From assembly GCA_029553475.1 (NCBI GenBank), contig JAKPKV010000028.1, positions 124,001 through 188,000 of the forward strand: a DNA stretch of 64,000 nt. The letters are read 5' to 3'. Positions 20,768 to 63,370 of the stretch are shown piece after piece. The DNA comes from Armatimonadota bacterium (GTDB lineage: Bacteria > Armatimonadota > Hebobacteria > CAIYQO01). Within the stretch, counting starts at the first letter, position 1. Each line of letters opens with the position of its first letter. A program made the translations under genes and the position numbers. The notes under the pieces are model-generated. The model saw nothing but the letters and a program-made list of their open reading frames with translations. It ran no database searches and had not been told where the DNA came from.

Positions 20768-22324
20768 CCGGGGGCGCGTGCCGTAGCGCCTCCACAGCCG
20801 GCAGCCGAGCCAGAGGAGCGGGCCCCAGACGGGGAGGAAGACGGCGATGGGGATGAGCACGGCGAGGAGCCAGAGGCCGAAGGCGCGCAAGCCGCGCACG
20901 GCTCCGTGCAGCGAGGCGGCGAGCGGGGAGACTGTCTTCGCCTCCGCTTTCTTCACCGGCGGGGCGGTGATGCGCACGGTGATCTCCGCCAGCCGCACGC
21001 GGCTCTGCAGTTTATACTCCTCGATGCGCGCCCCGGTCGCCTCGCGGCTGGCGCCGCTGATCGTCTCTTCCGCGCGCAGGGCGTCGCCCGGCTTCGCGCG
21101 GTCCTGGATGGCGCCCACGCGCCCCTGGATGCCGCGCAGATCGCCCAGCGTCTCGATGTTGCGCAGATGCGCGGCGGTCAGGTCTTCGCCGTTCACCGCG
21201 CGGCTCACCAGCGTCCCCAGCGCCCCCAGCTCCACCAGCATCTTCCCCAGGTTCTCGCTCGGCACGCGCCCGCTCACCGCCGCCGTCGCGGGTGTTTCTT
21301 CCTCACCTCGCGCGTAGTTCGAGGTCAGCACGAAGCCGTCGTGCCGGCGGAAGAGCAGCTCCGCCCGCTCCAGCGCCGCCTGCACGTTTTCGCTCTCCAG
21401 CGCCACCTCCGCGCGATAGGCGATCTGCAGCTTGTCCGCCAGGCCGTAATTTTTCGTCGGCGGGGCGATGGTGGGCGGAGCGGGGGGCCGCGCTGCCTGA
21501 CCGGGCGGGGGGGGAGGCGAGGATAGCGCCGTGCTCGCCGGCCTCTTCGCCACCGCTTCCTGTTCGGCCAGCGCCAGCTCAGCATACGCGTTGATGTTGT
21601 TCAGTCGCGGGAAGAAGCGCACATGCCCATCGGCGAAGCCGATAATCATCCCGTTATGGCGCGGCGCGGAATCCCAGACGACGGGGGTTTCCGTCGGCGC
21701 ATGGACCGCCGCCGCCGGTTGGCCGGCCAATGCCGTGTTATAGCTGTAGCTGTTCTGGTTGATGCCCCCTCCGGAACCGGGAGTGGTGTCCACCGGGTCA
21801 GAAAAGATTTTCTCTGACCCGGCGTAATCCATAATCGCCGCGGCCCAGGTATCCGCGGGGGGGTACGCGCCTTCATCCTGTACGTACATCTGGATTGCCG
21901 TGGCAATCTGGCGAAGCTGGCTGGTGCAGGTGGTTTGCCGCGCCTTCTCGCGTGACCTGGCAAAGGTCGGGAAGAGGATCGCCGAAAGGACGGCAACGAT
22001 ACTGACCACGACCAGCCATTCCCAAATAGACGTGCGGCGTTTCGGTCTCTCCGGCGCCAGTGGGATCGCTGCATACCGATCCGCGGGTTCGATCTCCTCT
22101 TCGGCCACCCGCGCCAGCACGCCGGCGGCGAAGCCGTCGCTCGCCCCGCGTTCCCGCAACGCGGCGGCGGCATCCTGGGCGTCGCAGCGCAGCAGCTCGG
22201 CCAGCGCGCGGCAGCCGTCGCAGCTTTGCAGATGCTCCTCCACCCGGGCGCGTTCGCGCCTGGTGGTTTCCTCATCCAGATAGGCGGAGAGCAGCACCGC
22301 CCATGCGTCACAGGCTTTCAGCAT
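20750..22324 (-). CDS. Chimeric anti-sigma factor: zinc finger + pseudopilin-like module + DUF4349
   Basis: A 524-residue protein of three parts. Residues 1-40 form a ZAS anti-sigma zinc finger, C5-x25-H31-x3-C35-x2-C38. Residues 98-240 copy a DUF1559-type pseudopilin: SIWEWLVVVSIVAVLSAILF, FARSREKARQ, and RHNGMIIGFADGHVRFF (an H-x8-DG variant). The Gly-Phe cleavage site is lost, so the helix should stay as a membrane anchor. After a proline-rich linker (about 262-290), residues 295-510 match a DUF4349-like domain with coiled-coil character and a C-terminal membrane helix pair. Its start overlaps the sigma gene stop (ATGCTGA), so it is almost certainly that factor's membrane-bound regulator. 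Confidence 0.85.
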   Translation of the reverse strand: MLKACDAWAVLLSAYLDEETTRRERARVEEHLQSCDGCRALAELLRCDAQDAAAALRERGASDGFAAGVLARVAEEEIEPADRYAAIPLAPERPKRRTSIWEWLVVVSIVAVLSAILFPTFARSREKARQTTCTSQLRQIATAIQMYVQDEGAYPPADTWAAAIMDYAGSEKIFSDPVDTTPGSGGGINQNSYSYNTALAGQPAAAVHAPTETPVVWDSAPRHNGMIIGFADGHVRFFPRLNNINAYAELALAEQEAVAKRPASTALSSPPPPPGQAARPPAPPTIAPPTKNYGLADKLQIAYRAEVALESENVQAALERAELLFRRHDGFVLTSNYARGEEETPATAAVSGRVPSENLGKMLVELGALGTLVSRAVNGEDLTAAHLRNIETLGDLRGIQGRVGAIQDRAKPGDALRAEETISGASREATGARIEEYKLQSRVRLAEITVRITAPPVKKAEAKTVSPLAASLHGAVRGLRAFGLWLLAVLIPIAVFLPVWGPLLWLGCRLWRRYGTRPRPSSRE

Positions 22325-22848
22325 CGCACGCCTCCTTCCCGGCCGCGGGCGGCGAACAGCGCGCGCAGGCGTTCACGGGCGCGGCAGCAGCGCACGCGCA
22401 CGGTATTCACGCTGGTACCCAGCGCCTCGGCGATTTCTTCGTAGCTGAGTTCCTGCACGTAGCGGGCGGCGAGGATTTCGCGGGAGGCCAGGGGCAGACT
22501 GTCGAGGAGGTCGGCCAGGTCGCCGCCGATCTCGGCGGGCGACAGCGCGGGCAGCTCGGCGCACTCGTCCAGCGAGACGGGCTCCGGCTTCCGGCGCTTG
22601 AGGGCGGTGAGGCACTTGTGCCGCAGGATACCGAACACCCAGCCCCGGAATTTCGTGCGGTCTTTCAGCGATCGCAGATGGCGATACGCATCCACCAGCG
22701 CCTCCTGCGCCAGGTCTTCCGCGTCCTCCGCATGCCGGGTCAGGTGCCGCGCGGCGGCGACCAGGGCATGCTGGTAGCGCTGCACCAGCCTCCCGAACGC
22801 CTCCACGTCACCCCGCAACGTGGCCTCAATCAGCGCGGCATCGTCCAT
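22318..22848 (-). CDS. ECF-type RNA polymerase sigma factor
   Basis: A 176-residue sigma-70 family factor starts at ATG 22848 behind GGAGGTGACAGT. Region 2 spans about residues 10-75 (YQHALVAAARHLTRHAEDAEDLAQEALVDAYRHL, KFRGWVFGILRHKC). Region 4 spans about 115-165 (LASREILAARYVQELSYEEIAEALGTSVNTVRVRCCRARERL). There is no region 1.1 or 3. It is translationally coupled to the zinc-finger anti-sigma gene downstream. A promoter at 22958-22929 drives the pair. The regulon is unknown; the partner's pseudopilin module suggests an envelope or secretion signal. Confidence 0.93.
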   Translation of the reverse strand: MDDAALIEATLRGDVEAFGRLVQRYQHALVAAARHLTRHAEDAEDLAQEALVDAYRHLRSLKDRTKFRGWVFGILRHKCLTALKRRKPEPVSLDECAELPALSPAEIGGDLADLLDSLPLASREILAARYVQELSYEEIAEALGTSVNTVRVRCCRARERLRALFAARGREGGVRC

Positions 22849-53714: not shown

Positions 53715-54824
53715 TTACCTCCGCGGTGGGGCGGTGGTGCCGCGCACCACCAGCTCCGTGGGCAGCGTGACGGCTTCCAGCTCATCCCGCTGCTCGGTGA
53801 CGTGCCGCGCCAGCATCTCCGCCGCCGCGCGACCGACCGCTTCCAGCGGCACGCGCACGGTGGTGAGGAGGTTTCGCCCGGCGGCGTCCGGCAGCGGTTC
53901 CGCGTCATCGAAACCGACGATGCTGATATCTTCGGGGACGCGCAAGCCCAACGCGCGCAGCGCTTCCCGCGCCAGCGAGGCGTAGCCGTCATTGGGCAGC
54001 AGGATGGCGGTGATGCCGGGATGCGCCGCCCAGGCGCGCCGCAGGGCGTCAGGCATGCGCTGCTCCAGGGGGAGCAGATGGTCCATCCGCAAACCATACA
54101 GCCCGTCATCCGGGTTCAAACCGTGATCGCGATACGCCTGCCGGCACCCGGCCCGCCGCTGATCATGCAGGTAGATCGGCCCCATTTCGGGGATCTCCGG
54201 CCAGAAATGCAGCACGCGGCGATGGCCCAGCGCCAGCAGGTGCGCGGTGGCGGCGTAGGCGCCGCCGAAATCATCCGTCAGCACTCGCGAGCAGCCCTCA
54301 ACGGGCACCAGCATCACCACGATGGGACACCGCCGTCCGCGCAGGGCCGGCGCGAGGCGCGCGAGGGGCACATGCTGCTGATAAGCATCCCAGCCCACGG
54401 CGATGAAACCGTCCACGTCGCCGCGGGTGTAGATCGGCAGCGGCTGCGTCATCGCGGGGTCGGCGGTGAGCAGGGCGAATCCGCGCGAGGTCGCCATCGC
54501 CAGCACGCCGCGGAACAGGTTGAGGAAATAGTTCGCCCGCGCGAAATCGCCCGGCATGAAGGTGGCGAAGATGTGATTGATGACGTGGATGCCGTGCTTG
54601 CGCAGCGCCAGCCGGCGCGCGGCGTGGTGGCAGGCGGGGTCATAGCCCAGCGCCGCGGCGGTTTCACGGATGCGGCCGGCGGTCTCCGGGCGGACGCGCG
54701 GATCATCTCTGAGCGCCCGCGAGACGGTGATCAGGCTCACCCCGCAGCGGTCGGCGATATCCTGCATCGTCGCCGCGCGCTCGATGCCGGCGGTCTGTGC
54801 GTGTCGCGCATCCATCCCCTGCAT
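53715..54824 (-). CDS. LacI-family transcriptional regulator
   Basis: A 369-residue repressor. The helix-turn-helix is TMQDIADRCGVSLITVSRAL followed by a hinge (PETAGRIRETAAALGYDP). The periplasmic-binding-like effector domain includes VLTDDFGGAYAATAHLLALGHRRV and SIVGFDDAEPLPDAAG. ATG 54824 has GGGAGAG at a good distance; ATG 54815 is possible. A longer open frame upstream runs into a mobile repeat and is rejected. It is divergent from the heparinase-like lyase gene and co-directional with the enolase-superfamily gene, so it likely responds to a sugar or uronate. Confidence 0.9.
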   Translation of the reverse strand: MQGMDARHAQTAGIERAATMQDIADRCGVSLITVSRALRDDPRVRPETAGRIRETAAALGYDPACHHAARRLALRKHGIHVINHIFATFMPGDFARANYFLNLFRGVLAMATSRGFALLTADPAMTQPLPIYTRGDVDGFIAVGWDAYQQHVPLARLAPALRGRRCPIVVMLVPVEGCSRVLTDDFGGAYAATAHLLALGHRRVLHFWPEIPEMGPIYLHDQRRAGCRQAYRDHGLNPDDGLYGLRMDHLLPLEQRMPDALRRAWAAHPGITAILLPNDGYASLAREALRALGLRVPEDISIVGFDDAEPLPDAAGRNLLTTVRVPLEAVGRAAAEMLARHVTEQRDELEAVTLPTELVVRGTTAPPRR

Positions 54825-54866
54825 CCTACGCAACTCTCCCTGCCCTGTCAAGCGACGCGCGGGACG

Positions 54867-55050
54867 GTCTCTGTTCACGTTTCTCGGCGTGCCTTGCCAT
54901 CCGCGCGCCCACCTCTCCCCCCGCCCCTCCCCTAAGCGGGGAGGGGAGCACCGGATCTGCACACCATCACTCCCCCTTCCCGCTCAGGGAAGGGGGCTGG
55001 GGGGTTAGGTTGCTTCGATCAGGACACAGACGCAAAGACGTGAACAGATA
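54867..55050. mobile_element. MITE-like element with 9-bp target duplication, copy A
   Basis: A 184-bp element is flanked by the 9-bp direct repeat CGCGGGACG (54858-54866 and 55051-55059). Its ends carry inverted CTGTTCACGT. The core has two hairpins (CCCTCCCCTAAGCGGGGAGG and CCCTTCCCGCTCAGGGAAGG). The core is the reverse complement of that in copy B at 62808. The 467-bp gap between LacI and the lyase holds this element and otherwise no recognisable gene. Confidence 0.75.
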
Positions 55051-55291
55051 CGCGGGACGCCCGGCGGCAATCCGCCGGCTTGTCTCCGGCACCAGCGCCG
55101 TCAGCTCACCCGCGATTCCCGGAGCAATCGGCAGGAAGGGACCCCGCGCTGGCGAAGAAGACGGTGAGATCGTGCCGCGAGCCGGGCACGGAGCCAGGCA
55201 TCCTCTCCGCGCCCCCCTCCCGCGCGGCTCGTCGGCGTCTCGCCCGCGGGGGAAGCCGAATACATGCGCGAGGATGACGAAGGGATCACCA

Positions 55292-62769: not shown

Positions 62770-62807
62770 GGGGCGTTCTGAGAAAAGTGGGGGCAGCAAT
62801 ATCCGCG

Positions 62808-62995
62808 TAACAGTTCAGTCCTGTCAGCATGTCGCCGAGTGATGGCACACCTACCCCCCCCACCCCCCTTCCCTGGCAGGGAAGGGGGGTGTGATGGGTG
62901 TGCAGAGCCGGTGCTCCCCTCCCCGCTCTGGGGAGGGGCGGGGGGAGAGGTGGGTGGACAGACGCCACAGCATGCGGACAGGACTGAACGGTTAT
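62808..62995. mobile_element. MITE-like element with 9-bp target duplication, copy B
   Basis: A 188-bp element is flanked by direct ATATCCGCG repeats (62799-62807 and 62996-63004). Terminal inverted repeats of 24 bp (TAACAGTTCAGTCCTGTCAG... and its complement at 62971-62994) have two mismatches. The core with two GC hairpins (CCCTTCCCTGGCAGGGAAGG and CCCCTCCCCGCTCTGGGGAG) is shared with copy A at 54867 in inverted orientation. It occupies most of the gap between leuA and the next gene. Confidence 0.78.
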
Positions 62996-63010
62996 ATATC
63001 CGCGACCGAT

Positions 63011-63039
63011 TTGCCTTATCAAGCGGGGGGCGGTATAAT
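63011..63039 (+). promoter_or_regulatory. Promoter of the Cys/His-rich small-protein operon
   Basis: TTGCCT (63011-63016), a 17-nt spacer and TATAAT (63034-63039). Transcription should begin near 63046, just downstream of the MITE's right target repeat. Confidence 0.7.
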
Positions 63040-63046
63040 GATGTTC

Positions 63047-63370
63047 GTGCGCACGCGGAGCAGGACGGGCTGGTTGCTGGTGGCGCTGTCGGCGTACCTG
63101 GGGCTGGTGCTGCTGGGGAGTTATCCTCATCAGCACGCGCACGGGCACGCCCCCGCCGCGCACGCGTCGTCCCCCGCGCTCCTGGCCGCCGACGATGATT
63201 GCTCGCTGTGCGCCTGGCATGCCGCCGCGTCGTCCTGCGCCGCGCTGGCGCTGCCCACCGTCACCCCGCGCTTCAACGCCGCCGATCCCGCCCATCTGGC
63301 GGTCAGGATATCGTCGGCATCTCCCGCGCTGCTCCGCGCCACGCGCGCGCCGCCCACGCCCCGCGCCTGA
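63047..63370 (+). CDS. Small exported Cys/His-rich protein (DUF2946-like)
   Basis: About 107 residues from GTG 63047. ATGs at 63038 and 63041 overlap or abut the -10 box, so GTG at the predicted transcription start is preferred (leaderless). A signal-anchor (GWLLVALSAYLGLVLLG) is followed by a histidine cluster HQHAHGHAPAAH and a CSLCAWHAAA motif. The layout resembles DUF2946 proteins found beside metal-responsive outer-membrane receptors. The next gene has the same CxLCxWHAAA motif, so the two are probably duplicates. Likely metal handling in the envelope. Confidence 0.68.
   Translation: MRTRSRTGWLLVALSAYLGLVLLGSYPHQHAHGHAPAAHASSPALLAADDDCSLCAWHAAASSCAALALPTVTPRFNAADPAHLAVRISSASPALLRATRAPPTPRA

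Follow-up and report, generated by a model that had tools for sequence, protein, structure and literature searches.

The Mutator-like elements TnGBS, ISLre2 and ISKra4 are known to insert in an oriented way, 15-17 bp upstream of the -35 box (PMC3942029). TnGBS itself inserts in one orientation, 15-17 bp upstream of sigmaA -35 boxes, and a model of the RNA-polymerase type has been proposed for it (PMC3942029). IS66 elements have GTAAGCG ends and an 8 bp duplication (PMC11946415), and ISDge4, a member of the ISBst12 group, has the terminal inverted repeat GTAACTGCTCAGCA, also with an 8-bp duplication (PMC12898284). How IS66-type transposases choose their targets is poorly understood, and in the open papers that we searched (most subscription journals lay outside the scope) we found neither promoter-targeted insertion for IS66 nor an IS66-derived MITE. 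Here we describe a MITE family from an Armatimonadota genome, which we consider likely to be IS66-type in its ends, moved in trans and anchored to promoters.

The window analyzed is a stretch of 64,000 nucleotides (GCA_029553475.1, contig JAKPKV010000028.1, positions 124,001 to 188,000), and it contains two copies of the element. Copy A lies at 54867..55051 on the forward strand (185 bp, type 1 ends GTCTCTGTTCACG / GTATCTGTTCACG), between left and right 8-bp target duplications GCGGGACG at 54859..54866 and 55052..55059. Copy B lies at 62807..62995 on the reverse strand (189 bp, type 2 ends GTAACAGTTCAGTCCTGTC / ATAACCGTTCAGTCCTGTC, core reversed), between duplications ATATCCGC at 62799..62806 and 62996..63003. 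These limits are a small shift from those of the preliminary description, which had placed A at 54867-55050 and B at 62808-62995. Its observation that the two copies share a two-hairpin GC core in opposite orientation holds over about 100 bp at 90% identity, and the inverted ends with GTTCA that it reported are indeed present in both. In copy A, GC hairpin 1 of the core is at 54924..54946 (CCCCTCCCC-TAAGC-GGGGAGGGG) and GC hairpin 2 at 54972..54996 (CCCCCTTCCC-GCTCA-GGGAAGGGGG), both on the forward strand; in copy B, the corresponding hairpins are at 62916..62938 and 62863..62889 on the reverse strand.

Each copy is accompanied by a predicted promoter that points away from it; the -35 hexamer lies precisely 15 bp beyond the end of the element, and the spacer is 17 bp. 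At copy A, the predicted hexamers are TTGACA (54846..54851) and TAGGAT (54823..54828), both on the reverse strand, and the downstream gene on that strand (53715..54815) encodes a LacI-family regulator of 366 aa, whose ATG is 7 nt past the -10 box. At copy B, the predicted TTGCCT (63011..63016) and TATAAT (63034..63039) precede, on the forward strand, a small ORF at 63041..63370, the start codon of which is uncertain and the weak DUF2946 match of which comes from an overlapping longer frame.

When the window's own genome (G000; 5.27 Mb in 194 contigs) was searched with copy A as the query, a family of about 27 copies was recovered. Uninterrupted copies are 168-189 bp long and end in GTAACMGTTCAGTC or GTATCTGTTCACG, and two longer copies hold a nested insert. 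As expected of bacterial MITEs, the copies are shorter than 300 bp, gene-less and dispersed, with terminal inverted repeats and target duplications. Two subfamilies can be distinguished: type 2, with 18 aligned copies including B and the ends GTAACMGTTCAGTCYTGTCAGCATG, and type 1, with five aligned copies including A, plus the two with a nested insert, and the ends GTATCTGTTCACGTTTYTG. The core is 92% identical between the subfamilies versus 94-95% within them, whereas the arms, which are 87-89% identical within a subfamily, are only 60% (left) and 50% (right) identical between the two. This indicates that one core has been shared or swapped between two end sets, or that gene conversion has held it uniform.

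Both GC hairpins are conserved, and because they are nearly invariant, they provide no covariation evidence; the pairs that do co-vary belong to the arms and the terminal repeats, and for the most part they mirror the split into two subfamilies. No terminator T-run was seen in the element, and Rfam gave nothing above threshold, with only sub-threshold microRNA matches to the GC hairpins. In the two interrupted type 1 MITEs (L109, C13:27142-27489, and L110, C186:about 21990-22340), the nested repeat is located at the tip of a core hairpin and is flanked by inverted, not direct, repeats. Its ends, GATGCTCTTTGACAAATG, are presumably ISL3-like, and a relative of the repeat is found at C5 (L108).

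The left and right flanks of the 25 copies with both ends mapped were compared at every duplication length between 4 and 12, with the conserved G at the terminus of GTAAC treated as part of the element. At length 8, flank identity was 0.815 against 0.287 expected, a value reached by none of 2000 shuffles, and all other lengths were at chance level. The preliminary description had assigned A and B 9-bp direct repeats of their own; each copy does have its own repeats, and their length is 8 bp. Genome-wide, the 9-bp frame is at chance (flank identity of 0.28 versus 0.29 expected over the 25 end-mapped copies), the 8-bp frame passes strongly, and it is coincidental that a ninth base matches in A and B. 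The elements start with GTAWC and duplicate 8 bp, not 9, and this alters their family assignment. The duplication is perfect in 12 of the 25 copies and matches at no fewer than seven of eight positions in 18; moving the eroded right end of one further copy (L017) by 2 bp reveals a 7/8 duplication there too, for a total of 19/25 at that level, which mismatched flank pairings reached in just 2 of 600 cases. Moreover, one copy (L012) is inserted in a copy of another repeat, of which an unoccupied paralogue exists, and its joined flanks align with that paralogue across the junction (79% over 116 bp), an independent sign of precise insertion. The earlier proposal of transposition with independent target duplications, as opposed to a static repeat, is therefore upheld by the 25 insertions that were mapped, together with one empty site at a paralogue, and a mobile, non-autonomous element family is firmly supported.

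The same genome contains a second GC-rich palindromic family (L233-L253; ACCTCTCCCCCC...GGGGGGAGAGGT), REPIN-like, with two inverted hairpins, which occupies at least about 40 places without target duplications (for example, C193:44763-44886, C148:2633-2756 and C176:133930-134051). Its flanks prolong the palindrome with extensions (cgggggtc, cggcggtc, ggcgctc, atacatcgcg) that are copy-specific yet match on the two sides, a pattern that points to a conserved stem. The second family and the MITE core have their architecture in common, and the spacer AGCACCGGA is shared with some copies. Ten Y1 transposase domains of the IS200/REP-associated type are also found in this genome (L254-L261).

The most striking property of the MITE family is its position relative to promoters, which we predicted from sequence alone using a sigma70-type model (TTGACA-(16-18)-TATAAT-like, score at least 9/12), read outward from the element ends at offsets 0 to 89. 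A -35 hexamer starts exactly 15 bp outside the element in 14 of the 25 copies, or 15 with the L017 end corrected, and at any other offset, at most one copy has a promoter. With a background of 1.5e-4 per position in those flanks, the binomial P for 15/25 is about 1e-45. Shuffling the flanks 500 times yielded a maximum of 1 promoter at any one offset, and a control, another GC palindrome family from the same genome, yielded 1 promoter in total at any offset over 42 flanks. None of the 25 copies has a promoter pointing towards the element, and it is nearly always the same arm, that of the CCACCTCTCC side, which is turned towards the promoter (14 of 15 cases, or 18 of 19 when the cut-off is relaxed). 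The distance to the -35 hexamer is fixed at 15 bp while the spacer between the -35 and -10 hexamers is either 17 (8 sites) or 18 (7 sites), and the duplicated 8 bp fall at about -50 to -43 relative to the promoter. No recognizable promoter is present at offset 15 in four to six copies, of which three have perfect duplications.

The genes downstream of the copies are real ones, and include ilvC (ketol-acid reductoisomerase), trpD (anthranilate phosphoribosyltransferase-type), lepA, ychF, leuD, uvrA and lacI types, together with ORFs for an ArsR regulator and a radical-SAM enzyme. The family inserts in an oriented manner at a spacing like that of the p-MULT elements (15-17 bp upstream of -35). 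The preliminary description had recognized the mobility of the element; it included neither the anchoring to promoters nor the two subfamilies built on one core. Since most insertions point at a -35 box, the elements mark active promoters in an uncultured lineage.

Insertion sequences with matching ends were found outside this genome, among the ISBst12-like IS66 elements. A genome of the same genus (G001) carries an intact IS66 element, 1612 bp long and with a single ORF (L163:27-1638), which has the terminal inverted repeats GTAATCGTTCAGG / GTAACCGTTCAGG, a perfect 8-bp duplication CAATTTTT and a 505-aa product that matches PF03050 and NF033517. Further single-ORF IS66 elements are present in relatives within the phylum (G019 and G152), and similar ones in Kovacikia, Chroococcidiopsis, Nostoc and Microcystis, including on cyanobacterial plasmids, as well as in the gammaproteobacteria (ISAs21 of Aeromonas, Alteromonas and an E. 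coli plasmid). The ends mapped for these IS66 elements approximate GTAACYGTTCA[GC], and perfect 8-bp duplications flank most of the elements. The type 2 ends GTAACMGTTCAG fit this group consensus, the type 1 ends GTATCTGTTCAC are off at one position, and the overlap in sequence between the MITEs and the IS66 elements is confined to about 12 terminal bases. Judged by those bases, ISBst12-like IS66 elements are the closest end match to the MITE family.

In the draft assembly of the window's genome, no autonomous element with the MITE ends was found, and the only IS66 relic is a decayed TnpC fragment (L031, C193:17084-17218), so the autonomous partner has been lost, is unassembled or was never resident here; gaps in the assembly may account for its absence. 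A resident partner is likewise missing for many published MITEs. A multi-copy IS at C126:95552-96699 and at the contig ends C36, C174 and C37 breaks several contigs, and its 364-aa product resembles an IS481-type integrase-core transposase; loose end matching had made it a candidate partner, which was rejected because its ends differ. Matches to GTAACCGTTCA in C40, C123 and several coding regions were attributed to chance, and a search of 150 relatives for type 1 ends produced neither a second family nor a partner.

Distant relatives (G073, G082 and G124) do have elements that combine GTAACMGTTCAGT ends and 8-bp duplications with different cargo, and named genome records with similar ends include Chloroflexi MAGs. 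In the three distant relatives, the cargo of these IS66-ended, MITE-like elements (L141-L161) consists of different widespread repeats (CATTGCGAGCGAAGCGAAGCAATCTC, CATTTCGAGC... and CCCCACCCCAACCCTCCCC hairpins), as if such repeats had repeatedly been captured between IS66 ends. No IS66 genes were found in G082 or G073, both of which have similar-ended MITEs. We surveyed promoter offsets for GTAACNGTTCAG-ended MITEs and IS66 copies in a sample of relatives. In G082, 6 of 43 MITE ends lie 5-17 bp from -35 boxes versus 0.5 expected (P about 9e-6), with offsets that vary from 7 to 15 and no one fixed distance. At the autonomous ISBst12-like copies checked in other genomes, no promoter was present at offset 15. 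Promoter targeting is therefore not general to the group and, if IS66 is responsible for it here, must be a restricted trait.

It is conceivable that a Mutator-like transposase of the p-MULT kind (ISLre2, TnGBS or ISKra4) moves the MITEs and that their IS66-like ends are coincidental. The p-MULT 3 elements and the ISKra4 group have a spacing, orientation and duplication length nearly identical to the MITE pattern, and p-MULT 4 elements have been reported from Chloroflexi (PMC3942029); ISLre2 and ISKra4 are also notable for insertion 50-250 bp from genes, whereas for IS66 it is the space between convergent gene ends that is over-represented (PMC9208149). We nevertheless regard this explanation as unlikely, given that over 11-12 bases the MITE ends agree with those of ISBst12-like IS66 elements of three phyla, which have 8-bp duplications, whereas the ends of ISKpn19 (GAGAGCATGAAAAACC) are unrelated; ISKpn19 is the sole ISKra4-family member compared, carries, like the ISAzba1 group, a pRiA4_Orf3-like gene and probably falls outside the promoter-targeting subgroup. 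A tblastn search with the ISKpn19 transposase found no relative in the collected loci, which represent a small part of the genome.

We attach a similarly low probability, if not a slightly lower one, to random or merely intergenic insertion followed by selection that retained those at about -51, where the end of the element might, for instance, aid or insulate the promoter at precisely that phase. Housekeeping genes lie downstream, where disruptive insertions would be lost, and this fits selection well enough. However, selection for an intact promoter would produce a much broader peak than the single base pair seen at offset 15, the other repeat family of the same genome has no such pattern, and a like pattern in TnGBS and ISLre2 has been credited to targeting (PMC3942029). 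Least credible of all is a reading of the repeats not as transposons but as static palindromes, regulatory or REP-like. It is true that the GC core resembles that of the separate palindromic family, but the defined GTAWC ends, the L012 insertion with its empty paralogue and, decisively, the independent duplications in 19 of 25 copies refute a static reading.

Returning to the IS66-type interpretation, we suggest that an IS66-type transposase acting in trans would cut the GTAWC...GWTAC ends and insert the element with an 8-bp target duplication. By analogy with the proposal for TnGBS, the transposition complex would most likely dock on promoter-bound RNA polymerase holoenzyme near -35, which would fix both distance and orientation. 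As the -35 distance is fixed while the -35/-10 spacer varies, the simplest anchor would be a factor bound at the -35 side. Because the insertions do not disrupt the core promoter, they are probably of little harm, and this low fitness cost may be why the elements have persisted. If the transposase is indeed IS66-type, either the trait arose twice, or IS66-type transposases can read the transcription machinery. We think the chances about even that an IS66-type system evolved RNA-polymerase tethering independently of the Mutator-like elements, with oriented insertion at one position (about -51) of housekeeping promoters.

The ISBst12-like group of IS66 (ISDge4, ISAs21) has GTAAC-N-GTTCA(G/C) inverted repeats and an 8-bp duplication, as does the MITE; however, the MITE is gene-less, and the autonomous relatives checked do not lie 15 bp upstream of promoters. 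The p-MULT elements (TnGBS, ISLre2 and ISKra4; Guerillot et al. 2014, PMC3942029) share with the MITE its oriented insertion and have duplications of 8-9 bp, but their transposase superfamily is unrelated to IS66, and the ends of the one family member compared (ISKpn19) differ. Moreover, near-perfect repeats gave both orientations among the p-MULT elements (PMC3942029), whereas the MITE is oriented despite the near-identity of the first ~25 bp of its two ends. MITEPsy1, MITECca01 and MITEPye1 are, like the present family, short, gene-less and hairpin-rich, with inverted repeats and duplications, and are IS-mobilized in trans; they have been assigned to IS5, IS982 and IS1182, and the available parts of their descriptions do not mention precise promoter anchoring. 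Yeast Ty1/Ty3 likewise become tethered to the transcription machinery and so insert upstream of Pol III genes, although they are retrotransposons that depend on eukaryotic RNA polymerase III, and the likeness is one of analogy only. The kind of element is known, and the mode of targeting is known from another superfamily; it is their combination that appears to be new in the papers searched.
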